This document shows, one piece after another, positions 21,513-38,299 of a stretch of DNA of 64,000 bases. The stretch's first letter is position 1. Each line of letters begins with the position of its first letter. The notes beneath the pieces were generated by a model. The model was not told where the DNA came from, searched no databases, and saw only the letters and a program-made list of their open reading frames with translations. Made by a program: the position numbers and the translations under genes. The stretch spans positions 1 to 64,000 of the forward strand of contig NZ_BJTG01000004.1 in assembly GCF_013340205.1 (NCBI RefSeq), read 5' to 3'. The stretch is from Anaeromyxobacter diazotrophicus (GTDB lineage Bacteria > Myxococcota > Myxococcia > Myxococcales > Anaeromyxobacteraceae).

Positions 21513-21567
21513 TACCCAAATGCCGGTATTACCCATATCCCGGTGGACCTGCACCCGAATCGCGGTG
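21513..21567. promoter_or_regulatory. Array of three 16-bp activator sites upstream of the hemerythrin gene
   Basis: Three related sites: TACCCAAATGCCGGTA (21513-21528), TACCCATATCCCGGTG (21530-21545) and CACCCGAATCGCGGTG (21552-21567). Consensus is YACCCRWATSSCGGTR, with ACC at one end and GGT at the other. Start-to-start spacings are 17 and 22 bp. They lie between the divergent NorR-like gene and the sigma54 promoter at 21643, about 76 bp from it. The same site type in the same number and spacing occurs before norB (34181-34235). Proposed enhancer for the NorR-like protein and possibly for its own autoregulation. Confidence 0.75.
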
Positions 21568-21641: not shown

Positions 21642-21657
21642 TGGCACGCCCCTCGCT
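21642..21657 (+). promoter_or_regulatory. Sigma54 (-24/-12) promoter of the hemerythrin gene
   Basis: TGGCACGCCCCTCGCT carries a perfect TGGCACG -24 box. The -12 GC is exactly 10 bases after the GG (GG 21643-21644, GC 21655-21656); only the -12 TTGC is changed to TCGC. The start point would be near 21668, so the protein must start at the ATG at 21719 rather than further upstream. Confidence 0.75.
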
Positions 21658-22418: not shown

Positions 22419-24368
22419 ATGCCGATCAAGGCGCGCCTCCCGGAGCTCGGCGACTGGAAGGCCCAGGTGAAGTGCCAGATCGGCTGTCCGGTGACCACGG
22501 ACGCCGGCCGGTACGTGCAGCTCATCGCCGAGGGCCGGGACGAGGAGGCTTACCTCGTCGCGCGCGCGCCGAATCCGTTCGCGTCCGTGTGCGGCCGCGT
22601 CTGCGCCGCCCCCTGCGAGGACGCCTGCCGGCGCGGCTCCGTCGACGCGCCCATCGCGATCCGCGCGCTGAAGCGGACCGTCACCGAGAAGTTCGGCGTC
22701 GAGTCGATGCGGCCCGACACCCAGGACCGGCTGCTCGACGCCGGCTTCGGCGAGGGCAACCGGTACGTGGACCACCTCCCGGTGACGCCGTTCGGGCGCG
22801 CCCACGCCGCCGGTCGCAAGGTGGCGGTGGTGGGCGCCGGGCCGGCGGGCCTCTCGGCGGCCCACGACCTGGCCCTCCTCGGCTACGCCGTGACCGTCCT
22901 CGAGGCCTCCGAGGAGCCGGGCGGCATGATGCGCTTCGGCATCCCCGAGTACCGGCTCCCGCGCAGCCTCATCGCGGCGGAGATCGACAAGATCCGCGGG
23001 CTGGGCGTCACGCTGGAGCTCTCCTCGCCCCTGACCGCCGAGCGCGGGCTGGCGGCGCTCCGCGCCGAGGGGTTCGAGGCCGTCTTCCTCACCGTCGGCG
23101 TGCAGCGCGGCCGCGACCTGCAGATCCCCGGCGTCGAGCTCGACGGCGTGGTCAAGGCCGTCGACTACCTCCTCAACGCGAACCGCGGCTACCGGATGGA
23201 CCTCGGGCGGCGCGTGGTGATCATCGGCGGCGGGTTCGTCGCCTTCGACGCGGCCCGCACCGCGCTGCGGGTCGGCCGCGAGGACGAGCCTGCGCTCTCG
23301 CAGGCGGTGGGCGTGGGCGGCGAGCGCATGAAGGAGGCGTTCGACTCGGCGCGCGAGGCGCTCCGGGGCGGCGCGGCGGAGGTGACCATCGCCTCGCTGG
23401 AGTCGTTCGAGGAGATGCCGGTCCTCCGCACCACGCAGGGGCACGAGGAGTTCGAGGAGGCCCGGCGCGAGGGCGTGCGCTTCCAGCCCCGCCGCGGCCC
23501 CCGGCGCCTCCTGGGCGACGGGCGGCTGCGCGCGGTCGAGCTGCGGCGGGTCACCTCGGTCTTCGACGCCGCCGGCCGGTTCGCGCCGCAGTACGACGAC
23601 GCCGATCTCCTGACGGTGGAGGCGGACGCCTGCGTGCTCGCCATCGGCCAGCGCGCGGATCTGTCCTTCCTCCAGCCCGGGGACGGGGTCGCGCTGACGC
23701 CGGGGGGCACCATCCAGGTGGACCGGGAGACGCTCGCCACCACCGCGCCCGGCGTCTACGCCGGCGGCGACGTGGCGTTCGGGCCGCGCAACCTCATCGA
23801 GGCGGTCGCGAACGGCAAGCGGGCGGCGCGCTCCATCCACCGCTACCTGGCGCGCGACGCGGCGCGGCTGGAGGCGGTCGTCGACGTCGAGAAGATCCCG
23901 ACCCGCAGCTACCGGATGATCGCCGGGTTCGAGCTCCTCGATCGCGTGCCGCCGGACACCTTGCCGCTCGGGCGCCGCACCGGCATCGCGGAGGTGGAGA
24001 CGGGGTACGGCGAGGTGGAGGCGCGCCGGCAGGCCGCCCGCTGCCTCGTCTGCCACGTCCAGACCATCTACGACCCGGAGAAGTGCGTCCTCTGCAACCG
24101 GTGCGTCGACGTCTGCCCCGAGTACTGCCTGGCGCTGGTGCCGCTCGAGGAGCTCGACCTGCCCGAGGCCGAGCGGGCCGCCCTCGTCGCCGCCGCGGGG
24201 GCGAACGGGCTGCCGCTGTCGGCGATGGTGAAGGACGACACCGCCTGCATCCGTTGCGGCCTGTGCGCCATCCGCTGCCCGACCGACGCGATGACGATGG
24301 AGCGCTTCACGATCAGCGAGCGGTGGGCCCCGGCGCAGCCGGCCGCCCCCGGCGAGGAGAAGCGATGA
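22419..24368 (+). CDS. GltD-like FAD/NAD(P) oxidoreductase with iron-sulfur domains, head of the nos operon
   Basis: A 649-residue cytoplasmic flavoprotein. The N-terminal cysteine region is of GltD type (CQIGCPV, then CGRVCAAPCEDACRRG, about 22-80). An FAD loop (VVGAGPAGLSAAHDLA) lies near 135-150 and a second dinucleotide loop (VVIIGGGFVAFDAARTA) near 267-283. Two 4Fe-4S cluster motifs sit near the end (CVLCNRCVDVCP and CIRCGLCAIRCP). It could take electrons from NAD(P)H and pass them to the quinone pool or to the Rieske/cytochrome b proteins encoded next. The stop overlaps the Rieske start (ATGA). Its exact partner and direction of electron flow are inferred. Confidence 0.88.
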   Translation: MPIKARLPELGDWKAQVKCQIGCPVTTDAGRYVQLIAEGRDEEAYLVARAPNPFASVCGRVCAAPCEDACRRGSVDAPIAIRALKRTVTEKFGVESMRPDTQDRLLDAGFGEGNRYVDHLPVTPFGRAHAAGRKVAVVGAGPAGLSAAHDLALLGYAVTVLEASEEPGGMMRFGIPEYRLPRSLIAAEIDKIRGLGVTLELSSPLTAERGLAALRAEGFEAVFLTVGVQRGRDLQIPGVELDGVVKAVDYLLNANRGYRMDLGRRVVIIGGGFVAFDAARTALRVGREDEPALSQAVGVGGERMKEAFDSAREALRGGAAEVTIASLESFEEMPVLRTTQGHEEFEEARREGVRFQPRRGPRRLLGDGRLRAVELRRVTSVFDAAGRFAPQYDDADLLTVEADACVLAIGQRADLSFLQPGDGVALTPGGTIQVDRETLATTAPGVYAGGDVAFGPRNLIEAVANGKRAARSIHRYLARDAARLEAVVDVEKIPTRSYRMIAGFELLDRVPPDTLPLGRRTGIAEVETGYGEVEARRQAARCLVCHVQTIYDPEKCVLCNRCVDVCPEYCLALVPLEELDLPEAERAALVAAAGANGLPLSAMVKDDTACIRCGLCAIRCPTDAMTMERFTISERWAPAQPAAPGEEKR

Positions 24369-24871
24369 GCGACGGCTCGGATCGCAGGGAGTTCCTCAAG
24401 CGGCTCGGGATCGGGGCCGGCCTGGCCGCCGTCGCGTGCCAGGGCGCCGCCTCGCTGCGCTCGCTCGTGCCGAACGTCTCGTACGACGCGCCCACCACCG
24501 TCAAGCTGGGCCCCCCGGCCGAGTTCCCCGACGGGATGAAGTTCCTCCCCGAGCAGCGCCTGTTCGTGTTCCGGGAGAACCGGATCTTCCACGCCATCTC
24601 GGCGGTGTGCACGCACCTCGGCTGCACCGTCCGCGCCGAGGCGCTGGCGCACTACGAGGTGCGGAAGATCGGGGGGTCGGAGGTGAAGCTCACCCACCGC
24701 TTCCTCTGCCCGTGCCACGGCTCGCGCTACGAGGGCGACGGCACGAACGTGGCCGGCCCCGCGCCGAAGCCGCTCGCCTGGTACGAGCTGTCGATCGCGC
24801 CGGACGACGGGCAGCTGGTGGTGGACCTCGCGAAGCCGGTGGATCACGCGTTCCGGCTCACGATCGCGTAG
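24365..24871 (+). CDS. Rieske iron-sulfur protein of the nos operon
   Basis: A 168-residue exported 2Fe-2S protein. The twin-arginine signal DRREFLKRLGIGAGLAAVA is at residues 6-24. Rieske box I is CTHLGC (Cys82, His84, Cys87) and box II is CPCHGS (Cys115, Cys117, His118). It ends soon after the usual Rieske C-terminal strands. With the following cytochrome b and pentaheme c it forms a bc-like quinol oxidising module that can feed NosZ in the periplasm. Confidence 0.95.
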   Translation: MSDGSDRREFLKRLGIGAGLAAVACQGAASLRSLVPNVSYDAPTTVKLGPPAEFPDGMKFLPEQRLFVFRENRIFHAISAVCTHLGCTVRAEALAHYEVRKIGGSEVKLTHRFLCPCHGSRYEGDGTNVAGPAPKPLAWYELSIAPDDGQLVVDLAKPVDHAFRLTIA

Positions 24872-24880
24872 GAGCGCGCC

Positions 24881-26236
24881 ATGGCCATCTCCCCCGATCA
24901 ACCCGAGCGGCAGCCCACCAGCGCTCCCGGCGTCCACCCGCGCCCGGGGTGGAGCGTCGCGCCGGCCTCGGATCGCGAGGCGGGCGACGCGGTGGTGGCG
25001 AACTTCCTGCTGCACTGGTTCCCGGCGCGGGCGCTGAAGGACTCGCTCGCCTGGCGCTACTCGCTGTGGCTCGGGACCATCAGCACCGCGCTGCTCGCGC
25101 TGCTCGTCGCGTCGGGGATGCCGCTCCTCTTCCTCCACGTGCCGTCGGTGGAGCGCGCCTACGGCTCGGTGAAGGACATCGAGAACGTCGTCACCTTCGG
25201 CGCGTGGCTGAGGTCGGTCCACCGGCTCTCCGCCCACCTCATGGTGGCGCTCGTCTTCCTGCACCTCGCCCGGGTGTTCCTCACCGGGGCCTACAAGAAC
25301 GGGGTGGGCCGCGGGCAGCACCGCGAGTGGAACTGGGTCATCGGCGTCGCGATGTTCCTCGTGACGCTCTTCCTCAGCTTCACCGGCTACCTGCTGCCCT
25401 GGGACCAGCTCGCCTACTGGGCCGTCACCGTGGGCACCAACATCGCCTCGGCGGTCCCGCTGGTGGGCGACCAGGTGCGGGAGCTCATGCTGGGCGGCCG
25501 GACCATCGACCAGCCGACGCTGACCCGGTTCGAGATGCTGCACGTCATCGTGCTGCCCGCCGTGCTCGGCGTCCTCTTCGCGTATCACATGTGGCGCATC
25601 CGGAAGGACGGCGGGCTCGCCACCGCCGATCGCGCCGCGCTCCTCCCGGCGCGCGCGCCGGTGCCCGAGGCGGCCGGCCGGACGAAGACGTACACGCTGC
25701 TCGGGATCGCGCGCGGGCAGGGGCCGCTCATCCGGAGCGCGTCGCTGGAGCGCCCGGAGACGACGGTGAACGCGGTGCCGGACCTCACCCGGCGCATCGG
25801 CATCGTGATGCTGGGGACGGTGGCGCTCATCTCCATCCTGGCGGTGTTCGTCCACTCGCCGCTCGAGGAGCCGGCGAACCCGCTCGTCACGCCCAACCCG
25901 GCCAAGGCGCCCTGGTACTTCCTCTGGCTGCAGGAGATCGTGACCGACACCACGATCCGGATCGGCTCGTTCACGGTCAACGGCGCCTTCGTCGGCGGCG
26001 TGCTCCTGCCCGGGTTGCTCGTCGCGCTGATGGTCGTCTGGCCGTGGCTCGACCGGAGCACGGCGGCGGCCGCCGGTCGCTGGTTCCCGCGCAGCCGGCG
26101 CACGCAGAACGTCGTCTTCCTGGTGCTCGTCGCGGTCGTGATCCTCCTCACTCTCATCGGCACCTTCGTCCGCGGGCCCTTCTGGCGCATGTACTGGCCG
26201 TGGCAGGGCTGGCCCGAGATGCCGACCCGGTTCTGA
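24881..26236 (+). CDS. Cytochrome b of the nos-operon bc-like complex
   Basis: A 451-residue membrane protein. The b-type heme histidines are in VHRLSAHLMVALVFLHLARV and EMLHVIVLPAVLGVLFAYHM. The quinol-site motif appears as NPAKAPWYFLWLQE (APWY in place of PEWY) in the C-terminal half. About eight hydrophobic segments are visible. Thus the b6 and subunit-IV parts are joined in one chain. It lies 9 bp after the Rieske gene and is followed after 2 bp by the pentaheme cytochrome c gene. Confidence 0.93.
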   Translation: MAISPDQPERQPTSAPGVHPRPGWSVAPASDREAGDAVVANFLLHWFPARALKDSLAWRYSLWLGTISTALLALLVASGMPLLFLHVPSVERAYGSVKDIENVVTFGAWLRSVHRLSAHLMVALVFLHLARVFLTGAYKNGVGRGQHREWNWVIGVAMFLVTLFLSFTGYLLPWDQLAYWAVTVGTNIASAVPLVGDQVRELMLGGRTIDQPTLTRFEMLHVIVLPAVLGVLFAYHMWRIRKDGGLATADRAALLPARAPVPEAAGRTKTYTLLGIARGQGPLIRSASLERPETTVNAVPDLTRRIGIVMLGTVALISILAVFVHSPLEEPANPLVTPNPAKAPWYFLWLQEIVTDTTIRIGSFTVNGAFVGGVLLPGLLVALMVVWPWLDRSTAAAAGRWFPRSRRTQNVVFLVLVAVVILLTLIGTFVRGPFWRMYWPWQGWPEMPTRF

Positions 26237-26238
26237 CC

Positions 26239-27507
26239 ATGGAACGGCGCACGCTCTTCCCGCAGGCCCCGCGCGACCGGCTCATCCTGGGGATCGTCGG
26301 CGTCCTCCTCGTCGTCTCGACGGTGCTGTTCATCTGGAGCGACCGGGCGAAGGACTGGCGCTGGTACCAGGCCGAGTTCCGCCGGCGCGTCACCGAGAAG
26401 TACGGCGCGGAGAAGGCCGCCACGGTGCCGTCCGGCCTGAAGCAGCTCTGGATCGCCGACCTGCGCCGGGCCGATCGCTGCATCACCTGCCACCAGGCGG
26501 TGGCGTGGAAGGGGTTCGAGACGGCCGAGGAGCCGTTCCGCACCCACCCGCCGGAGCTCCTGCGGTCCCACCCGGTCGAGCGCTTCGGCTGCACCGCCTG
26601 CCACGGCGGCGAGGGCTACGCCATCGACGCCGAGGACGCGCACGGGCCGACGCCGCACTGGGAGGAGCCGGTCCTCGGCACCACGCTGGGCGAGGCCTAC
26701 TCGATCCAGGGCGACCAGGGCGCGCTCATCCAGATGAACTGCAACGTCTGCCACCGCTACGACCGCGAGACGAAGGGCGCCTCGGCCATCAACCTCGCGA
26801 AGCAGCTGGTGCGCGAGAAGGGGTGCCGGGCCTGCCACGTCGTGAACGGGCGCGGCGGGCAGATCGGGCCCGACCTCACCTACGTCGGCGACAAGGCGCC
26901 CGAGCAGTACGACTACTCGCGGCTCCTCGGCCAGAAGACCGCCTTCGCCTGGCACGTCGCGCACGTGAAGGAGCCGAAGGCGCTCGTGCCCGACACCGTC
27001 ATGCCGACCTTCGGCTTCTCCACCCAGGAGGCGCAGGCGCTGGCGATGCTGGTCATGTCGTGGCGCCGCGCCACGGTGCCGGCCGCCTACGTCTCGGGCG
27101 CGCCCCGGGGCGAGCCGCAGACGCCCCGGGAGGTCGCCGAGGAGGAGCGCATGAAGACCGGTCCCGGCGCCTGGTTCGTCAAGACCGGCTGCTACATCTG
27201 CCACAACATCTCCTCGCTCGGAGTGAAGAGCCCGGCGCAGATCGGCCCCGACCTCTCGGTGGCGGTCGAGGACGTCCAGAAGCGCTTCGGGCGCACGCTG
27301 GACGACTTCCTGCGCGAGCCGACCGGGACCATGTCGGTGGTGCTGTCCCGCCAGATCGTCCTCACCCCCGAGGAGAAGGCCGTCGCGGTGCAGAAGCTCC
27401 GCGAGGCGTTCGCCGAGTTCCAGAAGCAGAAGGCGGAGGGCGAGGGGGCCGGGGCGAAGCTGCGCAAGCCCGGCAACGAGCCTTCCAACGAAAGGAAGAC
27501 GCCATGA
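26239..27507 (+). CDS. Membrane-anchored pentaheme cytochrome c of the nos operon
   Basis: A 422-residue protein with one N-terminal membrane helix (LILGIVGVLLVVSTVLFIW, about 14-32) and five CXXCH heme sites: CITCH, CTACH, CNVCH, CRACH and CYICH. The last part (KTGCYICHNISSLGVKSPAQ) resembles a class I mono-heme domain. It probably links the Rieske/cytochrome b proteins to the copper site of NosZ. Its stop overlaps the nosZ start (ATGA). Confidence 0.93.
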   Translation: MERRTLFPQAPRDRLILGIVGVLLVVSTVLFIWSDRAKDWRWYQAEFRRRVTEKYGAEKAATVPSGLKQLWIADLRRADRCITCHQAVAWKGFETAEEPFRTHPPELLRSHPVERFGCTACHGGEGYAIDAEDAHGPTPHWEEPVLGTTLGEAYSIQGDQGALIQMNCNVCHRYDRETKGASAINLAKQLVREKGCRACHVVNGRGGQIGPDLTYVGDKAPEQYDYSRLLGQKTAFAWHVAHVKEPKALVPDTVMPTFGFSTQEAQALAMLVMSWRRATVPAAYVSGAPRGEPQTPREVAEEERMKTGPGAWFVKTGCYICHNISSLGVKSPAQIGPDLSVAVEDVQKRFGRTLDDFLREPTGTMSVVLSRQIVLTPEEKAVAVQKLREAFAEFQKQKAEGEGAGAKLRKPGNEPSNERKTP

Positions 27508-29360
27508 CGAACCGGATCGGTGGCTCCCTCGCCCTCGCCGCCGCCGCGGCGCTGCTCGCGGCCGGCTGCGCCCCCTCGAAGCCGAAGGGCGCCCAGCGCC
27601 AGCAGCGCGGCGCGTCCGACCTCGCCGTCGCGGCGGAGAAGACCTACGTCGCGCCAGGGGATCTCGACGAGTACTACATGTTCTCGTCGGGCGGGCACTC
27701 CGGGCAGGTCTTCGTCTACGGCATCCCGTCGATGCGCCACATCACGACCATCCCGGTCTTCACCCCCTACCCGGGCGTCGGGTACGGCTTCGACGACGAC
27801 ACGAAGAAGATGCTGGGCGAGTACACCTGGGGTGATGCCCACCACCCGGCGCTCTCGGAGACGAACGGCGACTACGACGGCCGCTGGCTCTTCATCAACG
27901 AGATGAACGGCCGGATCGCGCGCATCGACCTGCGCGACTTCAAGACGAAGCAGATCCTGGGGCCCATCGCGAACATCTCGGGGAACCACGGCTCGTCCTT
28001 CGTCACGCCCAACACCGAGTACGCGATGATGTCCACGCGCTTCTCGGCCCCCATCCCGAACGGCACCTACGCGCCGATCGAGAAGTACGCCACCGACTAC
28101 AAGGGCGTCATCGCCGGCATCAAGATCGACCCGAAGTCGGGCGAGATGTCGCTCGGCTGGGAGGTGGTGACCCCGCCCTTCGACTGGGACCTGGGCGACG
28201 CGGGGAAGGGCCCCTCCGACGGCTGGATGTTCTTCACCTGCTACAACTCGGAGCGCGGCACCGGCAAGCTCGAGGTGACCGCGTCGCAGCGCGATCGCGA
28301 CTACATCGGCGCGGTGAACTGGAAGCTCGCCGAGAAGGCGATCCAGGAGGGCAAGGGGAAGCTCATCGGCGGGGTGAAGGTGCTCGACCCGCGCGACGTG
28401 CCCGGCCTCATGTACCTCATGCCCTGCGGCAAGTCCCCCCACGGCGTCGACGTGTCTCCCGACGGGAAGTGGATCGTCGGCTCCGGGAAGCTGCAGGGCG
28501 TGACGACCGTCTTCAACTTCGAGAAGGTCCAGACCGCCATCCGGAACAAGGAGTTCACCGGGGACGAGGACGGCATCCCGGTGCTGCGCTACGAGGCGAT
28601 CAAGGACGCCGAGGTGCCGGTCGGGCTCGGGCCGCTCCACACCCAGTTCGGCGGCGACGGCTACGCCTACACCTCGCTCTTCGTCGACAGCGCCATCGCC
28701 AAGTGGAAGCTCGGCACCTGGGAGGTCATCGACAAGATCCCCGTCTCCTACTCGGTCGGCCACCTGGCGGTGGCCGGCGGCGACAGCGCCCACCCCTGGG
28801 GCAAGTACCTCGTCTCGCTCAACAAGCTCTCCCACGGCCGGCACCTGTCGGTCGGCCCCTCTCAGCCGGAGAGCTCGCAGCTCATCGACATCAGCGGCGA
28901 GAAGATGAAGCTGCTCTACGACGCCTTCACCGAGCCCGAGCCGCACTACGCCCAGATCATCAAGGCGGACAAGGTCCACCCCATCGAGATCTATCCGAAG
29001 GAGGAGAACCACCACCCGCTCGCCATCTGGGACGTGAAGGAGGCCGGCCCGACGCGGCAGGGCGACAAGGTGGTGGTGAAGACGGTGGTGGTGCGCTCCA
29101 CCATCACGCCCACGAGCGTGGAGGTGAACCAGGGCGACACCGTGACCTTCGCCATCACCAACATCGAGCAGACCACCGACGAGCTGCACGGGTTCGGCCT
29201 GCTCGGCTACAACAAGAACATCGTCATCGACCCGGGCGAGACGAAGACGGTCACCATCAAGGCCGACAAGCCGGGCGTCTTCCCCTACTACTGCACGAAC
29301 TTCTGCTCGGCGCTCCACCAGGAGATGCAGGGCTACCTCATCGTGAAGCCGAGGAAGTGA
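27504..29360 (+). CDS. nosZ: Nitrous-oxide reductase NosZ, clade II
   Basis: Terminal reductase converting N2O to N2 in the periplasm. The 618 residues begin with a Sec/lipoprotein-type signal (LAAGC, Cys22) rather than a twin-arginine signal, a hallmark of clade II enzymes. CuZ-ligand region GDAHHPAL (His113, His114) and further histidines in CGKSPHGVDVSPDG and EPEPHYAQI are present. The C-terminal cupredoxin domain has the CuA motif CTNFCSALHQEM (Cys597, Cys601, His605, Met608). Start ATG at 27504 with AAAGGAAG upstream. The following nosB and nosDFLY genes confirm the assignment. Confidence 0.98.
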   Translation: MTNRIGGSLALAAAAALLAAGCAPSKPKGAQRQQRGASDLAVAAEKTYVAPGDLDEYYMFSSGGHSGQVFVYGIPSMRHITTIPVFTPYPGVGYGFDDDTKKMLGEYTWGDAHHPALSETNGDYDGRWLFINEMNGRIARIDLRDFKTKQILGPIANISGNHGSSFVTPNTEYAMMSTRFSAPIPNGTYAPIEKYATDYKGVIAGIKIDPKSGEMSLGWEVVTPPFDWDLGDAGKGPSDGWMFFTCYNSERGTGKLEVTASQRDRDYIGAVNWKLAEKAIQEGKGKLIGGVKVLDPRDVPGLMYLMPCGKSPHGVDVSPDGKWIVGSGKLQGVTTVFNFEKVQTAIRNKEFTGDEDGIPVLRYEAIKDAEVPVGLGPLHTQFGGDGYAYTSLFVDSAIAKWKLGTWEVIDKIPVSYSVGHLAVAGGDSAHPWGKYLVSLNKLSHGRHLSVGPSQPESSQLIDISGEKMKLLYDAFTEPEPHYAQIIKADKVHPIEIYPKEENHHPLAIWDVKEAGPTRQGDKVVVKTVVVRSTITPTSVEVNQGDTVTFAITNIEQTTDELHGFGLLGYNKNIVIDPGETKTVTIKADKPGVFPYYCTNFCSALHQEMQGYLIVKPRK

Positions 29361-29367
29361 GGGAACC

Positions 29368-30030
29368 GTGAGCGGGATCTTCGAGCGGGAGGGCCGGGTC
29401 CTCCAGTCGACGGCGGGGTGGGCGCCGCGCGCGCTCCTCGTCGCGGCGGCCGTGCTCGTGGCCGTGGCCGGCACCACCTCGCTCTGGGACATGACGATGT
29501 TCGCGCCCCAGTACGGGGATGGCCTCCGGCTGCACATCCACAGCTCCCGGCTGGAGGGCGGCAACCGCGGCCAGGACCTGAAGGAGATCAACCTCCTCAA
29601 CCACTACATCGGGATGCACGAGCTCTCGCAGGAGAGCTTCACCGAGTTCCAGTGGATGCCGTTCATGATGGGCGCGCTGGCGCTGCTCTTCCTGCGCGCC
29701 GCCTTCTTCGGCACCGTCGGGCACCTCGTGGACGTGGCGGTGCTCTTCCTCTACTGCAGCCTGTTCTCGCTCTGGTCGTTCGCCCACAAGCTGTGGGCGT
29801 ACGGGCACGAGCTCGCGCCGACCGCGCCGGTCAAGGTGCCCGGCTTCATGCCGCCCATGTTCGGGCGCTCGCAGCTCGCGAACTTCGAGGTCTACTCGTA
29901 CCCCGGGCCGGGCAGCTACGCCTTCGCCGCGGTGGCGCTCGCGCTCGCGGCGGCGCTCTTCCTCGGGCTGCGCGGCGCGCGCACCGCCTCCGTCGCTCAC
30001 CCGCGGGGAGCCTCGGCCACGGGGTCCTGA
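29368..30030 (+). CDS. nosB: NosB-type membrane protein
   Basis: A 220-residue membrane protein placed directly after nosZ, as NosB is in clade II nos operons. About four hydrophobic segments: 23-42, 92-110, 114-138 and a C-terminal one near 188-205. Conserved-looking motifs are WDMTMFAPQYGDGLRLHIHS and WAYGHELAPTAPV. NosB is needed for N2O respiration in Wolinella, but its chemistry is unknown. GTG start at 29368 with GAGGGAA upstream. Confidence 0.85.
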   Translation: MSGIFEREGRVLQSTAGWAPRALLVAAAVLVAVAGTTSLWDMTMFAPQYGDGLRLHIHSSRLEGGNRGQDLKEINLLNHYIGMHELSQESFTEFQWMPFMMGALALLFLRAAFFGTVGHLVDVAVLFLYCSLFSLWSFAHKLWAYGHELAPTAPVKVPGFMPPMFGRSQLANFEVYSYPGPGSYAFAAVALALAAALFLGLRGARTASVAHPRGASATGS

Positions 30031-30033
30031 GCC

Positions 30034-31416
30034 ATGGCGTCCGGGGCCGCGCTCCTCGCGCTCGTCGCCGCGGCCGGTGGGGTCGGCGACATGGCGAGCA
30101 TCCAGCCGGGCGGGCTCGAGGGGCGGCCCCCGCCGTCCGAGGCCTCGCCGCTGCAGGCGCTCGTGGACGCGGCGGCGCAGGGCGCGACCGTGACCATCCC
30201 GGCCGGCACCTACCGGGGCGATCTGATCGTCGATCGTCCGCTGCGCCTCACCGGCGTCGGCCGGCCCCGGCTGGTGGGGTCGGGCCAGGGCAGCGTGGTG
30301 CGCATCCGCGCCCCGGACGTCACGGTGGAGGGCCTCGACGTGGACGGGGTGGGCGGGGGCGACCTGGGGCGCGACAGCTCGGGCGTCCACGTGGCCGCGC
30401 CGCGCGCCACCGTCCGCGACGTCCGGATCGAGCGCTCGCTGTTCGGCGTCTACCTGCGCGAGGCGCCGGGCGCCGTGGTCGAGCGCTGCGTCGTCCACGG
30501 CATCCCGGGGAAGGACGCCGGCGAGAAGGGCTCGGGCATCCACGTCTGGAACACCGAAGGGTTCACGCTCACCGGCAACGACCTCTCCGACGTCCGGGAC
30601 GGGCTCTACATCCAGTCCTCCTCGCACGGGCTCATCCGGGGCAACGCCGCGCGCGACCTCCGCTACGGCATCCACTACATGTACTCGGACGACAACGTGT
30701 TCGAGGACAACGTGTTCGAGCGCTCGGCGGCGGGCGGCGTGCTCATGCACTCGCGCCGCATCGTCTTCCGCCGCAACCAGTTCCTCCACAACCGCGGGTA
30801 CGCCTCGGTGGGCCTGCTCTTCAAGTCCTGCGACGACTCGCTGGCGGAGGACAACCTCATCGCCGACAACGCCCGCGGCGTCTTCCTCGAGGGCTCCTAC
30901 CGCGACGTGCTGCGCCGCAACGTCGTGGCCCGGTCGGACGTCGCGCTCGTCCTGTTCGACTCGTGCGGCGACGTGCGCGTCGAGGGGAACGCGTTCCTGG
31001 GCAACCTCGCGCCGCTGGAGCTCGTCGGGCGGCGCACCGACACCCGCCTCGACGGCAACTACTGGTCCGACCACGACGCCCCGGACCTCGACGGCGACGG
31101 GGTGAGCGACGCCCCCTTCGTCATCTCGAGCCTCTTCGACCACCTGCGCGGGAACGTCCTCGCCGCCGACCTGGTGGCGCAGAGCCCGGCGGCGGCCGCG
31201 CTGGGCGCGGCCGAGCGCGCCTTCCCGGTGCTGCGGCCGATCGAGGCGGTGGATCACCGGCCCCTGGCCCGCCGCCCGGCGCTGCCGGACGTCCCGCGCC
31301 CGGCGCGGCCCGGCCGCGGCGCCGATCCCGCCGGCCTGGCGCTGGCGCTGGGGACGCTCGCCGCGGGGGTGGCGGTCCTCGCGGGCGCGGGCCGCGGCGC
31401 GGGGGGGCGGGCGTGA
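30034..31416 (+). CDS. nosD: NosD, periplasmic copper-site maturation protein
   Basis: A 460-residue protein of the right-handed beta-helix (CASH) family required for copper-site (CuZ) maturation of NosZ together with the NosFY transporter. It has a short signal-like N-terminus and repeated parallel-helix turns (IPAGTYRGDLIVDRPLRLTG, DGLYIQSSSHGLIRGN, GIHYMYSDDNVFEDN). A C-terminal hydrophobic helix (about 434-452) may anchor it. Its stop overlaps the nosF GTG. Confidence 0.93.
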   Translation: MASGAALLALVAAAGGVGDMASIQPGGLEGRPPPSEASPLQALVDAAAQGATVTIPAGTYRGDLIVDRPLRLTGVGRPRLVGSGQGSVVRIRAPDVTVEGLDVDGVGGGDLGRDSSGVHVAAPRATVRDVRIERSLFGVYLREAPGAVVERCVVHGIPGKDAGEKGSGIHVWNTEGFTLTGNDLSDVRDGLYIQSSSHGLIRGNAARDLRYGIHYMYSDDNVFEDNVFERSAAGGVLMHSRRIVFRRNQFLHNRGYASVGLLFKSCDDSLAEDNLIADNARGVFLEGSYRDVLRRNVVARSDVALVLFDSCGDVRVEGNAFLGNLAPLELVGRRTDTRLDGNYWSDHDAPDLDGDGVSDAPFVISSLFDHLRGNVLAADLVAQSPAAAALGAAERAFPVLRPIEAVDHRPLARRPALPDVPRPARPGRGADPAGLALALGTLAAGVAVLAGAGRGAGGRA

Positions 31417-32312
31417 TCCGGTTCGAGCGCGTGTCGAAGCGGTACGGGCGGCACGTGGCGCTCTCCGGCCTCTCGCTCGAGGTCCGGCGCGGCGAGGTGG
31501 TGGCGCTGCTCGGCCCCAACGGCTCGGGCAAGACCACCACGCTCAAGGCGGCGGCGGGCCTGGTCCACCCCAGCGAGGGGACGGTGATGCTCGGGGAGCC
31601 GCCGCGGCCCGCGGCCGAGCCCGACGCGCGGCGGACGCTCTCCTACCTGCCGCAGAAGGTCGCCTTCCCGGAGGCGCTCACCGGGCGCGAGGTGGTCGAG
31701 TTCTACCGGCGGCTGCGCGGCCTCGGCGCGGCGCGGACCGACGAGGCGCTGCACGTGGCCGCGCTGAACGGCGCCGGCGCTCGCCAGGTGGGCACCTACT
31801 CCGGCGGGATGGTGCAGCGGCTCGGGCTCGCCGTGGCGGCGCTGCCGGACGCGCCGGTGCTGCTGCTCGACGAGCCGACGTCGTCCCTCGACACGGCGGG
31901 GCTGGGAGCGGTGTACGCGCTGGCGGTGCGGGCGCGGCGCGAGGGGCGGGCGGTCCTGTTCACCTCGCACCAGCCCGCGGACGTGGAGCGGCTGGCCGAT
32001 CGGGTGGCGGTCCTGGTGGGCGGCCGCCTCGTGGCGCTGCTCGGGCGGGGGGAGCTGGCCGAGCGGCTCGCCGCGCGCGGCGTGCTGCGCGCGCGCGTCG
32101 AGCGGGTCCCGCCCGGCCTCGGCGAGCGGCTGGCCTCGCTCGCGCCGGGCGCGGCGGTCGAGGGAGACCAGGTGGTGGTGCCGGGCGACGCGCGGACGCG
32201 CGCGGCGGCCCTGCAGCTGCTGGCCGAGGCGGGCGCCCGCGTCCGCCAGCTCGCGGCGGAGGAGGGGCGCCTGGATCTCCTCTACCAGGAGCTCGCCGGA
32301 GGGGACGCGTGA
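31413..32312 (+). CDS. nosF: NosF, ABC transporter ATP-binding subunit
   Basis: A 299-residue ATPase that works with NosY to support NosD in copper-centre assembly. It has Walker A GPNGSGKTT (about 35-43), ABC signature YSGGMVQRL, Walker B VLLLDEPTSSLD and the switch histidine in FTSHQ. A C-terminal extension of about 85 residues follows, as in other NosF proteins. GTG start at 31413 overlaps the nosD stop by 4 bp. Confidence 0.94.
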   Translation: MIRFERVSKRYGRHVALSGLSLEVRRGEVVALLGPNGSGKTTTLKAAAGLVHPSEGTVMLGEPPRPAAEPDARRTLSYLPQKVAFPEALTGREVVEFYRRLRGLGAARTDEALHVAALNGAGARQVGTYSGGMVQRLGLAVAALPDAPVLLLDEPTSSLDTAGLGAVYALAVRARREGRAVLFTSHQPADVERLADRVAVLVGGRLVALLGRGELAERLAARGVLRARVERVPPGLGERLASLAPGAAVEGDQVVVPGDARTRAAALQLLAEAGARVRQLAAEEGRLDLLYQELAGGDA

Positions 32313-32761
32313 CCGCCCCGCGCACCGCGGTCGCGCTGCTGGTGCTGGCCGCCTGCTCCCGCGGCCCCGCGGGGCCGGCCCCCCTGGACACGCGCGCGGA
32401 GACCTGCGCGTCCTGCAGGATGGCCGTCTCGGACGCGCGCTTCGCCGCGCAGCTCGACGCCCCCTCGGAGGAGCCGCGCTTCTTCGACGACGTCGGCTGC
32501 CTGCGCGACTGGCTCGCCGCCCACCCGCGCCTGCCGCGCGGGGCGGTGGCGTGGGTGGCGGACCACCGCACGAAGGCGTGGGCGCGCGCCGCGCGCGCCG
32601 CCTACGCCGAGGCGCCCGCCGTCGAGACCCCGATGGCCTCCCACCTCCTCGCCTTCGCCGACGCGGCGTCGCGGGCCGCCGATCCCGCGGCCGCCGGCGC
32701 GCGCCCGCTCGGACCGAGCGAGGTCTTCGGACCCCACGGTCCGCCGGACGGCGCTCCGTGA
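32309..32761 (+). CDS. nosL: NosL copper lipoprotein
   Basis: A 150-residue outer- or inner-membrane lipoprotein (lipobox VLAACS) of the NosL family, a copper(I) carrier for NosZ. The copper-binding motif is CASCRMAVSD, followed by the conserved FFDDVGCLRDWL. GTG start at 32309 overlaps the nosF stop. The last 20 residues are proline- and glycine-rich. Confidence 0.93.
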   Translation: MTAPRTAVALLVLAACSRGPAGPAPLDTRAETCASCRMAVSDARFAAQLDAPSEEPRFFDDVGCLRDWLAAHPRLPRGAVAWVADHRTKAWARAARAAYAEAPAVETPMASHLLAFADAASRAADPAAAGARPLGPSEVFGPHGPPDGAP

Positions 32762-33597
32762 AGCGCGCCACGCCGCTCCTGCTGGTCGCGCGCGAGGAGC
32801 TGCTCCTCGCCGTCCGCTCGCGCTGGACGCTCATCTTCGCGGGCGTCTTCGCGGTCCTCGCCACCGGCGTGGCCGCCGCGGGCTACGTCCTGTCCGGCGG
32901 CAGCGGGCTGCAGGACCTGGCGCGGACGAGCGCCTCGCTGGTGCAGCTCGTCGTGCTGGTGGTGCCGCTCGCGGCGCTGCTCATGGGGGTGCTCTCCATC
33001 GCGCCGGAGCGGAGCACCTCCGAGCTGCTGTTCGCGCAGCCGGTCTCGCGGCGGGCCATCCTGCTCGGCCGCGCGGCCGGCCTGTTCGCCGCCCTCGCCG
33101 CCGCCGAGGCGGTCGGGTTCGGCGCCGCCGGGCTGCTCGTCTTCGCCCGCGCCGGCGACGAGGGGGCGGCCGGGTTCGCGCAGCTCGTCGGGTTCGCGCT
33201 GCTCCTCACGGCCATCTTCGTCTCGCTCGCGGCGCTCATCGCCTCCACGGCCACCGGGCGGCGCCGCGGGCGGGCGCTGGCGGTGGCGCTCGTGGTCTGG
33301 TTCGCGGCCGTCATCCTGGTCGACCTGGCGGCGCTGGGCCTCGCGTCGCTGCTGCCGTCAGGCCCCGCCTCGCGGGTGCTGGTCGTGGCCGTGCTCGCGA
33401 ACCCCGCCGCCGCGGTGCGCACCGGCGCGCTCCTCGGCATCGAGGGCACGGCGGCCTTCGGCGCGGGGTCGCTGGCGCTGCTGCGCGCGACGCACGGGCC
33501 GCTCGGCGCCGCGCTCGCCATCGCCGCGTCGAGCGCGCTGTGGGTGTGTGTCCCGCTCGCGTGGGCCGACCGCCGCCTCCAGCGTGTCGACCTATAG
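32758..33597 (+). CDS. nosY: NosY, ABC-2 type permease
   Basis: A 279-residue membrane protein with six predicted helices, partner of NosF. The N-terminal motif is LLLVAREELLLAVRSRWTLI. A family-typical loop is SIAPERSTSELLFAQPVSRR. GTG start at 32758 overlaps the nosL stop by 4 bp. It is the last gene of the nos operon; the next 760 bp hold no gene. Confidence 0.93.
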   Translation: MKRATPLLLVAREELLLAVRSRWTLIFAGVFAVLATGVAAAGYVLSGGSGLQDLARTSASLVQLVVLVVPLAALLMGVLSIAPERSTSELLFAQPVSRRAILLGRAAGLFAALAAAEAVGFGAAGLLVFARAGDEGAAGFAQLVGFALLLTAIFVSLAALIASTATGRRRGRALAVALVVWFAAVILVDLAALGLASLLPSGPASRVLVVAVLANPAAAVRTGALLGIEGTAAFGAGSLALLRATHGPLGAALAIAASSALWVCVPLAWADRRLQRVDL

Positions 33598-33614
33598 GCA
33601 GAGAGGGTCCGAGC

Positions 33615-33839: not shown

Positions 33840-33893
33840 CTGGCGGACGGGATCACGCGATCCCGCCGAGCGGTCGGACCCCAATGCGCGGGA

Positions 33894-34107: not shown

Positions 34108-34180
34108 GCACGCAAACCGGAACCGATCTTGCGGGGGCGAAGGGGAACTCCCCCGAAGCCGCTCCCGCGCCGCGCTGCGG

Positions 34181-34235
34181 CACCCAAATCGCGTCGCCCA
34201 CCGGGATATGGGTGCGGGGCACCCGCATATGGGTG
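34181..34235. promoter_or_regulatory. Array of three 16-bp activator sites upstream of norB
   Basis: Sites at 34181-34196 (CACCCAAATCGCGTCG, weaker right half), 34199-34214 (CACCGGGATATGGGTG, whose complement is CACCCATATCCCGGTG) and 34220-34235 (CACCCGCATATGGGTG). Spacings are 18 and 21 bp, against 17 and 22 bp in the array at 21513-21567. The middle site differs by one base from the middle site of that array. The -24 element lies about 42 bp downstream. Proposed binding sites for the NorR-like regulator encoded at 19932-21485. Confidence 0.75.
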
Positions 34236-34275: not shown

Positions 34276-34291
34276 TGGCCGCTCTCTTGCT
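34276..34291 (+). promoter_or_regulatory. Sigma54 (-24/-12) promoter of norB
   Basis: TGGCCGCTCTCTTGCT matches the sigma54 pattern: GG at 34277-34278 and GC at 34289-34290 with 10 bases between, and a full TTGCT -12 box. The start point near 34302 lies 56 bp before the chosen GTG of norB. Confidence 0.75.
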
Positions 34292-34357
34292 CTTGGGGCG
34301 CGCGCACCGAGAGCTTCGGCCGGGGTCGACCCCGCCGTGAGCCGGAAAGGACTCAGC

Positions 34358-36643
34358 GTGAACAACCAGCGTTCCAAGGCGATCCTCCTGTTCGTCCTGG
34401 TGGCCGCCTTCAGCGTGCTGATCTTCGGCGGCGCCAAGATCAACCAGCACAAGCCGCCCATGCCGGCGAAGATCGTCGACGCGCAGGGCCAGGTCGTCTT
34501 CACCTACGACGACCTCATGGCCGGCCAGCGCTTCTACCTGGCCCACGGCGGTCAGCACATCGGCTCGATCTGGGGCCACGGCGCCTACCTCGCGGCCGAC
34601 TGGTCGGCCGACGCGCTCCACCGCACCGGCCTCGTCGCCGCCGGCCTCGCGCACGGGCTCGCGGCGGACGCCGCCCGCGGCTTCCAGCAGGCGGACCTCG
34701 ACGCGCTCGACGCCGGCGAGAAGGGCCGGGTCCAGGCGCTCGTCGCGCAGGAGCTCCGGCAGAACCGGTACGACGCCGCGAGCGACACGCTCGTCCTCTC
34801 CACCGGGCAGGCCGCGGCCGTCCCGTCGCTGGTCGCGTACTACACGCAGCTCTGGCAGGGCGGCTCCGACGCGATGTCGATCCCGCCCGGCGTCGTGAAG
34901 ACCGCCGAGGAGGGCCGGCAGCTCACCGCCTTCTTCTGGTGGACCGCCTGGGCCGCCGGCACGAACCGCCCCGGCGAGACCTACACCTACACCGCGAACT
35001 GGCCGTATGACCCGCTCGTCGGCAACGGCCCGCTCCCGTCGGCGCTGGTGTGGTCGATCGCGTCGGTGCTCCTGCTCATCGCCGGCACCGGGCTCGCCAT
35101 CTACCTCTACATGAAGGGCCGCGAGGGCGACGACGAGAAGCCCGAGTTCGCGAAGTTCTCCGAGCCGAACCCCACCCCCAGCCAGCGCGCCACGCTGCCC
35201 TACTTCCTCGTCGCGCTCGTCCTCTTCATCCTGCAGGCCGCGCTCGGCTCGATGACCGGCCACTACGCCGTCGAGGGCAACAAGGTCTTCGGCGTGGACC
35301 TCACCCACCTCCTGCCGTACGCCGCCAGCCGGACCTGGCACCTGCAGCTCGCCGTCTTCTGGATCGCCACCTGCTGGCTCGCGACCGGCCTCGTCATCGG
35401 CCCGGCGGTGGGCGGCAAGGAGCCGAAGGGCCAGAAGGCGCTCGTGCTGACCCTGCTCGGCGCGCTGGTGGTGGTCGTCCTGGGCGCGCTCTTCGGCACC
35501 TGGGCCGGCATCCAGGGCAAGCTCGGGAACGACTACCTCTTCGGCACGCAGGGCTACGAGTACATCGAGCTCGGCCGCGTCTGGCAGGTGGCGCTCATCG
35601 CCGGGATGCTGCTCTGGCTCGCGCTCGTCTACCGCGCCATCCAGCCGGCCCTGCGGCAGGAGAAGGACGCGGGCGGCCTCACCCACCTGCTCCTCTACGC
35701 CGCGGTCTCCATCCCGCTCTTCTACGCGGTCGGCCTGTTCTACACGCCGGGCAGCCACATCTCGAACGCCGACTACTGGCGCTGGTGGGTGGTGCACCTC
35801 TGGGTGGAGAACTTCTTCGAGGTGTTCGCCACCGTCGCGCTCGCCTTCGTGCTCTCCCGCGTCGGCGCCGTGAAGCAGGCCTCCGCCACCCGCGCCACCT
35901 ACTTCTCGATCATCCTCTACCTGGGCTCGGGCATCATCGGGACCTTCCACCACCTCTACTTCACCGGCTCGCCGCTCTTCATCACCGCGCTCGGCGCGAG
36001 CTTCTCGGCGCTGGAGGTGGTGCCGCTCACGCTGCTCGGCTTCGAGGTCTACCAGACCCTCAAGCTCGCGAAGCTGGGCGGGGACGCCGCGCCCTACAAG
36101 TGGCCGCTCTACTTCTTCACCGCGGTCGCCTTCTGGAACATGGTCGGCGCGGGCGTGTTCGGGTTCCTCATCAACCCGCCCATCGTCCTCTACTACGCGC
36201 AGGGCCTCAACACGACGCCCATCCACTCGCACGGCGCGCTCTTCGGCGTGTACGGCTTCCTCGCCATCGCGCTCATGCTCTTCTCGGTGCGCAACATCGT
36301 GAAGCAGGCCGCCTGGTCCGACACGCTCCTGAAGTACGCGTTCTGGGGCCTCAACCTCGGGCTGGCCGGCATGATGGTGATGTCGCTCATCCCGGCGGGC
36401 TTCTACCAGTTCGCCATCGCCATCAAGCACGGCATCTGGTACGCGCGCAGCCCGGCGGTCACCGGCAGCGACTTCATCCACACCGTGACCTGGCTGCGCG
36501 TCATCCCGGACGTGGTCTTCGACCTGGGCGCCTTCGCCCTGGTCGGCTTCCTCGGGCGGGCCATCGCGGTGGACGTTAGGCTCCGCCGTGCCGAGCGGAA
36601 CGCGACCCCGAGCCAGAGCGCGCCCGGCCGCCGCGCCGCCTAG
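34358..36643 (+). CDS. norB: Quinol-dependent nitric-oxide reductase (qNor)
   Basis: A 761-residue membrane enzyme that reduces 2 NO to N2O with electrons from quinol. The N-terminal extension of about 220 residues (one helix, then a periplasmic cytochrome-c-like fold without a CXXCH) marks the qNor type. Twelve or so further helices follow. Signatures are WRWWVVHLWVENFFEVFA, GTFHHLYFTGSP and NTTPIHSHGALFGVYG, which carry the heme b, heme b3 and FeB histidines. The start is the GTG at 34358 with AAAGGA about 8 bases upstream; the sigma54 promoter at 34277 excludes longer readings. Its product N2O is the substrate of the nos operon just upstream. Confidence 0.95.
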   Translation: MNNQRSKAILLFVLVAAFSVLIFGGAKINQHKPPMPAKIVDAQGQVVFTYDDLMAGQRFYLAHGGQHIGSIWGHGAYLAADWSADALHRTGLVAAGLAHGLAADAARGFQQADLDALDAGEKGRVQALVAQELRQNRYDAASDTLVLSTGQAAAVPSLVAYYTQLWQGGSDAMSIPPGVVKTAEEGRQLTAFFWWTAWAAGTNRPGETYTYTANWPYDPLVGNGPLPSALVWSIASVLLLIAGTGLAIYLYMKGREGDDEKPEFAKFSEPNPTPSQRATLPYFLVALVLFILQAALGSMTGHYAVEGNKVFGVDLTHLLPYAASRTWHLQLAVFWIATCWLATGLVIGPAVGGKEPKGQKALVLTLLGALVVVVLGALFGTWAGIQGKLGNDYLFGTQGYEYIELGRVWQVALIAGMLLWLALVYRAIQPALRQEKDAGGLTHLLLYAAVSIPLFYAVGLFYTPGSHISNADYWRWWVVHLWVENFFEVFATVALAFVLSRVGAVKQASATRATYFSIILYLGSGIIGTFHHLYFTGSPLFITALGASFSALEVVPLTLLGFEVYQTLKLAKLGGDAAPYKWPLYFFTAVAFWNMVGAGVFGFLINPPIVLYYAQGLNTTPIHSHGALFGVYGFLAIALMLFSVRNIVKQAAWSDTLLKYAFWGLNLGLAGMMVMSLIPAGFYQFAIAIKHGIWYARSPAVTGSDFIHTVTWLRVIPDVVFDLGAFALVGFLGRAIAVDVRLRRAERNATPSQSAPGRRAA

Positions 36644-36667
36644 CACCCGAGCCGAAAGGAGTCCCAC

Positions 36668-38299
36668 GTGACGCACCCGCGCACGCTGGCCCTCCTCGCG
36701 GTCCTGACCCTCGCCCCCGCCGCCGCCCTGGCGGCGGGGGGCGAGGCGCGCCCGAAGAAGGCCGCCCCGGCGAAGCCCGCCGCGGCGGCCGTCGCCGTTC
36801 CGGCGCGCTCGCAGGGCTGCGTGGAGTGCCATCAGACGTCCAGCCCCGCCCTCGTGACGCAGTGGCACGACAGCACGCACGCCCGGAAGGGCGTCGCCTG
36901 CCTCGACTGCCACCAGCGCCAGGCCGGCGCCGCCGACGCGTTCCAGCACGGCGACGCGCTCATCGCCACCGTCGTGACGCCGCGCGACTGCGGCCGCTGC
37001 CACCAGAAGGAGGCGGAGGAGTTCGGCCGGAGCCACCACGCCAAGGCCGGCAACATCCTCGCCTCGCTCGACAACTACGTGGCGGAGACGGTGGAGGGCG
37101 CGCGCGTCCCGTTCAACCCCCACGGCACCACCCCCGGCTCCTCGCCGATCATGGTGAACGGGATGGCCAGCGCCGAGTCGGGCTGCCAGCAGTGCCACGG
37201 CACCAAGGTGGCGCTCCGGGCGAAGGACGGGGGGAAGCCCATCACGGTCGACGACCTGAAGCCGGGCGCCGACGGCAGGCCCACCGACCAGGCGGCGCTG
37301 GCGCGCGTGGCGCGCGACGCCGACGGCAAGCCCGCGCTGGTCGAGGCGACCTGGCCCAACACCGGGATCGGCCGCATCAACCTGGACGGCTCGCTCGGCT
37401 CCTGCTCCGCCTGCCACAGCCGGCACGACTTCGCGCCCCGCCGCGCCCGCCAGCCGGAGAACTGCGGGAAGTGCCACCTCGGCCCGGACCACCCGCAGAA
37501 GGAGATCTACGAAGAGTCGAAGCACGGCATCGCCTACCGCGACCAGCGCGACAAGATGAACCTGGACGCGAAGAAGTGGGTGCTGGGCGAGGACTACGCC
37601 GCGGCGCCGACCTGCGCCTCGTGCCACATGTCCGCCAACGCGAACGGCGGGAAGGTGACGCACGACCCCGGCGAGCGCCTCTCCTGGACGAACCGCCCCC
37701 CCATCTCGCTCCGCATGGACACCGACGCCCAGCACCGGGTGGTCACCGAGCAGGACCCCGCCAAGCGCCAGGCGCTGGTGGCCGACACCGCCGCGCAGAA
37801 ACGCGACCGGATGAAGGGGGCCTGCACCACCTGCCACGCCTCGTCCTACGTCGACGCCTTCTACAAGCAGTACGACGACTTCCAGGCCCTCTACGCCGAG
37901 AAGTTCGCGAAGCCCGGGCAGGAGCTCATGAAGGCGCTCCACGACAACGGGCTGCTCACCAAGATCGACTTCGACGAGAAGCTCGAGTGGGACTGGTTCT
38001 ACCTCTGGCACCACGAGGGCCGGCGCGCGCGGATGGGCGTCAGCATGAACGCCCCCGACTACGCGCACTGGCACGGGATGTACGAGGTGGCGGAGGACTT
38101 CTACCAGAAGATCGTACCCGAGGCGCGCGCCCTCATCGACGAGGCGGCCCGGCACGGGAAGGCGGCGCAGGCGAAGGCCGCCGGCGCCGTGCTCGACGCC
38201 ATCCTCGCCCGCCCGGAGCACGCCTGGTACCTCGAGCAGCGGGCGCAGAACCCGCCGGTGCAGGGCGAGTCCGTTCGCCCGCCGGCGCGGGCGAACTGA
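36668..38299 (+). CDS. Octaheme cytochrome c of the hydroxylamine-oxidoreductase family
   Basis: A 543-residue periplasmic cytochrome with a cleavable signal (LALLAVLTLAPAAALAA). It has eight CXXCH sites: CVECH, CLDCH, CGRCH, CQQCH, CSACH, CGKCH, CASCH and CTTCH. The stretch EIYEESKHGIAY and the tail segment WFYLWHHEGRRARMGVSMNA are typical of the HAO/octaheme family. Members either oxidise hydroxylamine or, in epsilonproteobacteria, reduce nitrite. The tyrosine that crosslinks to the active heme in true oxidases should be checked near DYAHWHG. Only 24 bp separate it from norB, so it shares that sigma54 transcript. GTG start with AAAGGAGT upstream. Confidence 0.88.
   Translation: MTHPRTLALLAVLTLAPAAALAAGGEARPKKAAPAKPAAAAVAVPARSQGCVECHQTSSPALVTQWHDSTHARKGVACLDCHQRQAGAADAFQHGDALIATVVTPRDCGRCHQKEAEEFGRSHHAKAGNILASLDNYVAETVEGARVPFNPHGTTPGSSPIMVNGMASAESGCQQCHGTKVALRAKDGGKPITVDDLKPGADGRPTDQAALARVARDADGKPALVEATWPNTGIGRINLDGSLGSCSACHSRHDFAPRRARQPENCGKCHLGPDHPQKEIYEESKHGIAYRDQRDKMNLDAKKWVLGEDYAAAPTCASCHMSANANGGKVTHDPGERLSWTNRPPISLRMDTDAQHRVVTEQDPAKRQALVADTAAQKRDRMKGACTTCHASSYVDAFYKQYDDFQALYAEKFAKPGQELMKALHDNGLLTKIDFDEKLEWDWFYLWHHEGRRARMGVSMNAPDYAHWHGMYEVAEDFYQKIVPEARALIDEAARHGKAAQAKAAGAVLDAILARPEHAWYLEQRAQNPPVQGESVRPPARAN

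Follow-up and report, generated by a model that had tools for sequence, protein, structure and literature searches.

The stretch analysed here (the window) comprises positions 1 to 64,000 of the forward strand of contig NZ_BJTG01000004.1 of Anaeromyxobacter diazotrophicus (assembly GCF_013340205.1). Within it norB, the gene for a quinol-type nitric oxide (NO) reductase (qNor), is followed on the same strand, after 24 bp, by the gene of an eight-heme (octaheme) cytochrome c that belongs to the hydroxylamine oxidoreductase (HAO) family, and the pair is preceded by a putative sigma54 promoter and by tandem palindromes that recur at other NO-linked genes of relatives (coordinates in Table 1). This arrangement points to a reductive HAO-family enzyme that was probably recruited, together with qNor, to a sigma54-controlled nitrosative-stress regulon. 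A search of open-licence papers found no published octaheme HAO-family gene with norB or in a regulon of this kind.

The norB-octaheme unit and its upstream element

Genes in the window were called with a home-made codon-score caller and not with a published one. The norB reading frame opens with GTG and encodes 761 aa. Its product matches the Pfam families NorB_cytochrome_c-like and COX1, aligns with solved qNor chains over its full length (E 1e-198) and contains no CXXCH motif; a COX1-type core is thus joined to an N-terminal cytochrome-c-like domain without heme c, as is characteristic of a qNor. The octaheme gene also starts with GTG, and its 543-aa product has a hydrophobic N-terminus and eight CXXCH motifs, at residues 51, 78, 108, 173, 246, 266, 316 and 386. 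This protein matches multiheme families in Pfam and yields only sub-threshold matches in NCBIfam, and when it was used as a query, its sole match in the window's genome was itself. A purine-rich stretch precedes the GTG of both genes, and that of the octaheme gene includes the ribosome-binding-like AAAGGAG, from 36655, within the 24-bp gap. The next gene, 3' of the octaheme gene, lies on the opposite strand (38307-40091). The first-pass annotation had described a qNor gene and an eight-heme gene 24 bp apart, and the gene calls and the motif count bear this out. It had named a separate promoter within the gap as one case that would speak against a common transcript; we looked for a promoter-like element in the gap and in the 3' end of norB, and none was found.

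A sigma54 promoter ahead of norB had also been claimed. The site starting at 34276 has GG at -24 and GC at -12 with the right spacing, and conserved sites lie upstream of it, so that it appears to be a promoter of this type. Taken alone, the -24/-12 match is weak evidence: the 64-kb window contains two matches to the pattern TGGCN7TTGCW where 0.29 would be expected, a count that is reached in 4 of 100 shuffles, and of 400 random 400-bp stretches drawn from the window, 42 held a site that scored as well as this one (19). It is raised above chance by the tandem palindromes upstream and by their conservation in relatives, and with this backing the claim holds. The palindromes were first spotted in a side-by-side display of the relatives' upstream regions and were formalised as ACC[CG]N6[CG]GGT, a pattern that is identical on either strand. 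The two full sites before norB are spaced by 21 bp. Within the window, palindromes form pairs with a spacing of 15-30 bp only in front of norB and of the ytfE-like gene; the backward control gave one pair. Two further candidates in this region were rejected: a TGGCAC...TTGC arrangement near 34013, in a repeat region, was dropped by eye as its spacing is off by one, and a terminator-like match at 34268 coincides in part with the promoter and is no more than chance would give (one found, 1.5 expected).

The combination of promoter and palindromes, hereafter the element, was then surveyed in the window and in 33 loci fetched for comparison, 34 stretches that amount to 1.14 Mb over both strands. 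At least one palindrome was present 20-180 bp upstream of 16 of the 33 promoter-like sites, compared with 0 of 14 when the same DNA was read backwards, and the palindrome-to-promoter distances clustered near 55-68, 87-92 and 110 bp. In this survey the element precedes ytfE-like genes in five genomes (G001, G003, G004, G016, G022) and norB in the window, G014 and G017; in G017 it also stands before an unseen gene at a contig end. It precedes the octaheme gene itself in G004, G016, G019 (promoter about 80 bp upstream) and G021 (427 bp upstream), in all four of which the octaheme gene lies away from norB, and in G002 it precedes a DUF2249 gene that adjoins the octaheme gene. Two of the 16 palindrome-bearing sites, before a flagellar-type regulator in G004 and G016, are probably chance occurrences.

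A single-site composite pattern gave 111 matches in 24 family genomes, many of them inside genes, versus 20 for the backward pattern. Twelve regions were fetched from this search. Among them the element, in some cases with a departure at the final base of the -12 box, was found before norCB (G005, G007, G010, G012), before YwiC-like genes (G004, G021, G022), in G022 also before a cupin gene that has a DUF438-hemerythrin gene behind it, once more before norB in G017, and, in the genome of the window itself (G000:C8), before the gene for a FIST-PAS-histidine kinase; it is doubtful in the G011 region, and the G009 region had none. Genes of the DUF2249, DUF438, YwiC and FIST types occur in NO-response regulons. 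Such regulons are also described as including norB, hmp and dnrN (PMC1274295, in part). The first-pass suggestion of a nitrosative-stress or nitrite-to-NO/NH2OH side path is supported in its stress half by an element that is common to norB, norCB, ytfE-like, other NO-linked and octaheme genes; the HAO-like chemistry that it implied has to be revised (see below).

The YwiC-like genes (L188 4534, L189 5005, L190 5006) follow the element by 30-56 bp and were named by Pfam in L188 and by likeness in L189 and L190. The FIST gene (L196 1273-4119) encodes a FIST-PAS-histidine kinase-receiver protein and has a sigma54-like site and one palindrome 65 bp upstream; its product is a possible NO sensor of the same regulon.

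The long octaheme gene, defined by at least 65% identity to that of the window, was found in 11 of 41 genomes. In six of the 11 (G000, which is the window's genome, G003, G004, G016, G019, G021) it lies behind the element, directly or via norB or ytfE. G008 could not be assessed, as its contig ends 216 bp before norB. In G003 the element is placed before ytfE, 147 bp ahead of norB, and therefore read-through to norB and the octaheme gene is assumed. The two genes are adjacent in three of the 11 genomes (G000, G003 and G008, with gaps of 24, 37 and 33 bp).

A quick tree, with SH-like approximate likelihood ratio support only, united the window with G003, G008, G004, G019 and G021 (support 99) and, within this clade, the window with G003 and G008 (support 85, not starred); long branches led to G033 and to one row of the short paralogue. 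Rows for L078, L079 and L082 (the same genes as G016, G012 and G007), for the incomplete L136 and L140, and for G007 and G016 had been dropped. Because the octaheme gene is under the element in four genomes without an adjacent norB, regulon control probably preceded norB adjacency, and the simplest history is a recruitment to the NO-type sigma54 regulon before the joining to norB; that the joining came later is modestly supported. Expression of the octaheme gene without norB, the other case that the first-pass annotation had named as refuting, is likely in these four relatives, judging by the gene's own copy of the element; this makes the link to NO stronger, not weaker. Several relatives also have, in or near their nap/nrf clusters, a shorter octaheme paralogue of the HAO family, with about 420-460 aa (L065, L066, L067, L068, L069, L070), which lies apart from the long gene and was not seen in the window's genome when the window octaheme protein was used as the query.

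The octaheme protein and its relatives

The octaheme protein was modelled as a single chain without heme (mean predicted local distance difference test score 84). Its nearest solved relative is 4qo5 (phmmer E 2.3e-40, profile E 1.7e-56, Foldseek 1.2e-18), which we take to be the octaheme cytochrome of the archaeon Ignicoccus hospitalis. In the fold comparison, the model reached a Z of 21.0 with 4qo5 over 411 residues, compared with 17.3-17.6 for HAO chains; however, identity to 4qo5 over the structural alignments is 24-29%, and a D-V replaces the D274-H275 of the window protein. With Nitrosomonas HAO (1fgj, 4fas) the protein shares the order of the heme motifs and, in the model, the fold. The fourth CXXCH (C173-H177) is presumably the catalytic heme, by its order in HAO.

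At the level of sequence, a difference from HAO concerns Tyr467, its known cross-linking tyrosine (the number agrees with the chain numbering). In a C-terminal profile alignment, HAO residue 467 falls on Trp468 in the motif DYAHW468HG, and a one-residue insertion in HAO makes His467 the near alternative partner, which is likewise not a tyrosine. HAO Tyr334 aligns with Arg343, and the HAO Asp-His pair (267-268) aligns with D274-H275, of which His275 is an arginine in G004. Among 89 rows of the long family (L136, L140 and G033 excluded, three duplicate rows counted), Trp468 and Arg343 are present in all 89 and Tyr465 in 88, whereas position 467 is His or Gln; the active-site region is conserved across phyla. 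The first-pass annotation had pointed to the DYAHWHG region for the cross-linking tyrosine. The alignment speaks against this, since the tyrosine of that motif is not at the Tyr467 position. An HAO-family sequence that lacks this tyrosine belongs with the putatively reductive members of the family: the lack of a cross-link is reported to go with reductive catalysis (PMC12758564 and PMC12485887, in part), and such HAOs are predicted to be reductive (PMC12758564, in part).

One scan of named genomes yielded at least 581 coding relatives, and the neighbourhood counts given here refer to the best-scoring 80 of these. The family is widespread and carries the motif DYxxWHG. Relatives in Planctomycetota, Acidobacteriota, Gemmatimonadota and others are mostly 57-69% identical (one 53%), and those in Vibrio, Grimontia, Calditrichaeota and others 44-49%. 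A cytochrome b gene lies directly upstream of the octaheme gene in 55 of the 71 named loci with room for it, NapA lies directly downstream in 18 of 69, both occur together in 15 of 80, and a qNor gene was found in the examined flanks of 0 of 80. By gene clustering, 28 loci have a Rieske family and seven a tetraheme family that comes after NapA; another tetraheme gene follows the octaheme gene directly in five gammaproteobacterial loci. Where 200 bp or more of upstream sequence was available (77 loci), a sigma54-like site was present in three and palindromes only in that of Anaeromyxobacter (L078). Quinol-linked donor or Nap genes, which are common in relatives and not defining, are absent directly beside the window octaheme gene. 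The cytochrome b of the window is a member of its nos cluster and shows 29-41% matches to the cytochromes b that adjoin octaheme genes elsewhere.

Together, Trp468, 4qo5 as the nearest solved protein and the Rieske/cytochrome b and NapA neighbours of the relatives favour reduction over hydroxylamine oxidation. The eight CXXCH hemes and the HAO-family fold themselves are borne out. The closest known systems include Kuenenia HAOr (kustc0458, 6h5l), kuste4574 and the Caldithrix and epsilonproteobacterial eHao, which are also octaheme proteins without the cross-linking tyrosine; like them, many homologues of the window family stand behind Rieske/cytochrome b genes and beside NapA, whereas the window gene lacks such neighbours and is joined to qNor under a sigma54 element. 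Kuenenia kuste4574 is described as part of a Rieske/cytochrome b complex (PMC12485887, in part), and for Caldithrix a Rieske/cytochrome b-Nap-eHao cluster has been published whose eHao was proposed to form ammonium (PMC5317091, in part).

Independently of the window, the gene order Rieske-cytochrome b-octaheme (L080-L156) is found again and again in several phyla, often together with NapA and a tetraheme gene; this spread exceeds the single published nap case encountered.

A nitrite reductase of the CXXCK type, octaheme or NrfA, was set aside, as all eight motifs are CXXCH and none is CXXCK; some NrfA are reported to carry five CXXCH (PMC12285233, in part). The octaheme nitrite reductases of Trichlorobacter (TaNiR, a homologue of which works with Nap in Desulfurivibrio) and Thioalkalivibrio also have eight hemes, but differ by their active-site CXXCK and are far weaker fold matches (Foldseek E 0.18-0.39).

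Proposed function and alternative explanations

From the gene identities, their spacing, the shared element, the family context and the missing tyrosine, all of which can be read from the sequence, we infer the following mechanism. norB and the octaheme gene would be co-transcribed as one sigma54-dependent unit of an Anaeromyxobacteraceae nitrosative-stress regulon with NO as the presumed signal. The GAF-AAA+ protein encoded at 19932-21485 is the most likely activator; bound to the tandem palindromes, some 55-110 bp ahead of the -24 box, it would switch on qNor and the octaheme enzyme together. qNor would convert NO to nitrous oxide (N2O), and the octaheme enzyme, predicted to be periplasmic, cross-link-free and reductive, would remove nitrite, NO or hydroxylamine, most likely to ammonium, with electrons from a presumed donor.

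The candidate activator combines GAF and sigma54 AAA+ domains, as does NorR. Its orthologues (68-77% identical) are encoded near ytfE/norB in five relatives. Across six orthologues, the pair Cys153-Cys154 and His144 do not vary; the non-haem iron residues reported for the GAF domain of E. coli NorR are R75, Y98, D99, H111 and C113 (PMC2941729, in part). Palindrome binding and NO sensing are suggested by its gene position. The arrangement resembles the NorR regulon of gamma- and betaproteobacteria, in which a sigma54 promoter lies behind two or three tandem palindromes, the targets include norB and dnrN, and the regulator is usually encoded beside them (PMC1274295, in part); it differs in its palindrome, its regulator and its octaheme target.

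With an HAO-family enzyme that is induced together with an NO reductase, these bacteria would have a further means of removing NO, nitrite or hydroxylamine beside the first, and this could shift the balance of ammonium versus N2O in soil. A family otherwise tied to nitrate respiration (Nap, Rieske/cytochrome b) would have moved into stress defence, and the shared element defines a testable regulon with a motif unlike that of NorR.

Several points weigh against a reductive stress enzyme under NO control. The candidate activator is below the NCBIfam cut-off for NorR (338.3 versus 476 bits) and also below that for NifA (372.2 versus 528.85), and for this reason we do not call it NorR; the palindrome ACC[CG]N6[CG]GGT differs from the NorR consensus GT-N7-AC (PMC1274295, in part). 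Four genomes (G002, G007, G012, G014) carry the long octaheme gene without the element before it, and the same-genus genome G001 has a norR-ytfE-norB locus and no octaheme gene. No electron donor gene lies directly beside the octaheme gene. Finally, NrfA is present in the window's genome, where its gene stands beside NrfH-like and molybdopterin nitrate-reductase-like genes (L073), so that ammonium formation from nitrite is already covered. A role of the octaheme gene as an NrfA stand-in was set aside, since eight of the 11 long-octaheme genomes also have a strong NrfA match (G000, G002, G003, G004, G008, G016, G019, G021). G007 and G012 have no NrfA match and G014 only a weak one, on its octaheme gene; as these three are only 79-87% complete, nothing follows from their missing NrfA.

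The main alternative is that the octaheme protein is an HAOr-like, NO-forming nitrite reductase that feeds qNor and, with NosZ, completes a nitrite-to-N2 route without NirS or NirK. Profile searches of the 17-contig assembly of the window's genome, which has three qNor genes and NosZ, found no NirS match and no NirK over the cut-off, and NirK was over the cut-off in 0 of 41 genomes; this leaves room for an NO-forming role feeding qNor and NosZ. The genes for NosZ, qNor and the octaheme protein lie in one same-strand stretch, and the Kuenenia HAOr, also without a cross-link, is reported to turn nitrite into NO (PMC12485887, in part). Yet most lineages pair the octaheme gene with Rieske/cytochrome b and NapA, a context without qNor in the examined flanks (0 of 80 loci) that fits the reduction of nitrite to ammonium. 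Moreover, the adjacency to nos is particular to the window's genome, as nosZ is elsewhere or not over the cut-off in G001, G003, G004, G016 and G022, and four relatives have the octaheme gene under the element and away from norB. We therefore consider NO formation unlikely. Still more doubtful is the extended proposal that the locus is a Nir-free nitrite-to-N2 island, in which NO from the octaheme enzyme would pass to N2O by the co-transcribed qNor and to N2 by the neighbouring Sec-dependent NosZ under an activator and enhancer motif distinct from those of NorR. Such an island, if real, would mean denitrification without a Nir enzyme in organisms that are classed as ammonifiers and N2O reducers; Anaeromyxobacter-type bacteria are described as reducing nitrite to ammonium and consuming N2O without nirS and nirK (PMC10653820, in part).

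It is similarly doubtful that the octaheme protein carries electrons or reduces another substrate and stands in the operon by chance. Multiheme cytochromes are numerous in Anaeromyxobacteraceae, and the activity of this one is a prediction; however, the same element precedes the octaheme gene where norB is not adjacent, and the active-site region is conserved across phyla. Oxidation of hydroxylamine to NO or nitrite, with removal of the NO by qNor, would agree with the eight hemes, the fold and the aligned Asp-His pair, but was set aside as highly improbable in view of Trp468, Arg343 and the closer likeness to 4qo5.

Features of the window and neighbouring genes

Table 1. Features of the window discussed in the text (positions refer to the window)
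Feature	Position	Strand	Basis or remarks
GAF - sigma54-activator (AAA+) protein, norR position, candidate activator	19932..21485	-	Pfam GAF, Sigma54_activat, AAA lid
Three tandem palindromic sites upstream of ytfE-like gene	21514..21566	+	starts 21514, 21531, 21553
Sigma54-like site before ytfE-like gene	21642..21657	+	TGGCACGCCCCTCGCT, one departure in -12 box
Hemerythrin-domain protein, YtfE/RIC-like	21719..22330	+	Pfam Hemerythrin; NCBIfam RIC 38.4 vs cut-off 204.7 bits
nos cluster	22419..33597	+	FAD/FeS, Rieske, cytochrome b, 5-heme cytochrome, Sec-dependent NosZ, NosD, F/L/Y-like genes
Palindrome half-site near norB promoter	34182..34195		ACCCAAATCGCGTC
Palindromic site 1	34200..34213	+	ACCGGGATATGGGT
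Palindromic site 2	34221..34234	+	ACCCGCATATGGGT
Putative sigma54-type -24/-12 promoter ahead of norB-octaheme unit	34276..34291	+	TGGCCGCTCTCTTGCT, spacing correct
norB, quinol-type NO reductase (qNor)	34358..36643	+	Pfam, solved-chain match, motif scan
Octaheme cytochrome c, HAO family, without cross-linking tyrosine	36668..38299	+	motif scan, sequence and fold comparison
Codon of Trp468, aligned with HAO Tyr467	38069..38071	+	profile alignment

The nos cluster lies between the ytfE-like gene and norB. Its NosZ scores 914 bits against a cut-off of 625, and NosF, NosL and NosY are putative names based on position. NosZ was over the cut-off in nine of the 24 family genomes. In five relatives (G001, G003, G004, G016, G022) the ytfE-like gene and norB are direct neighbours, and the intervening nos cluster of the window should therefore not be read as ancestral.

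The interval between nosY and norB (33600-34120) contains two copies of a palindromic repeat of about 240 bp, which gave 69 match rows genome-wide, both orientations counted, and thus belongs to a dispersed family. On the minus strand (61239-62387), the window also contains a gene for a protein with twelve CXXCH motifs.

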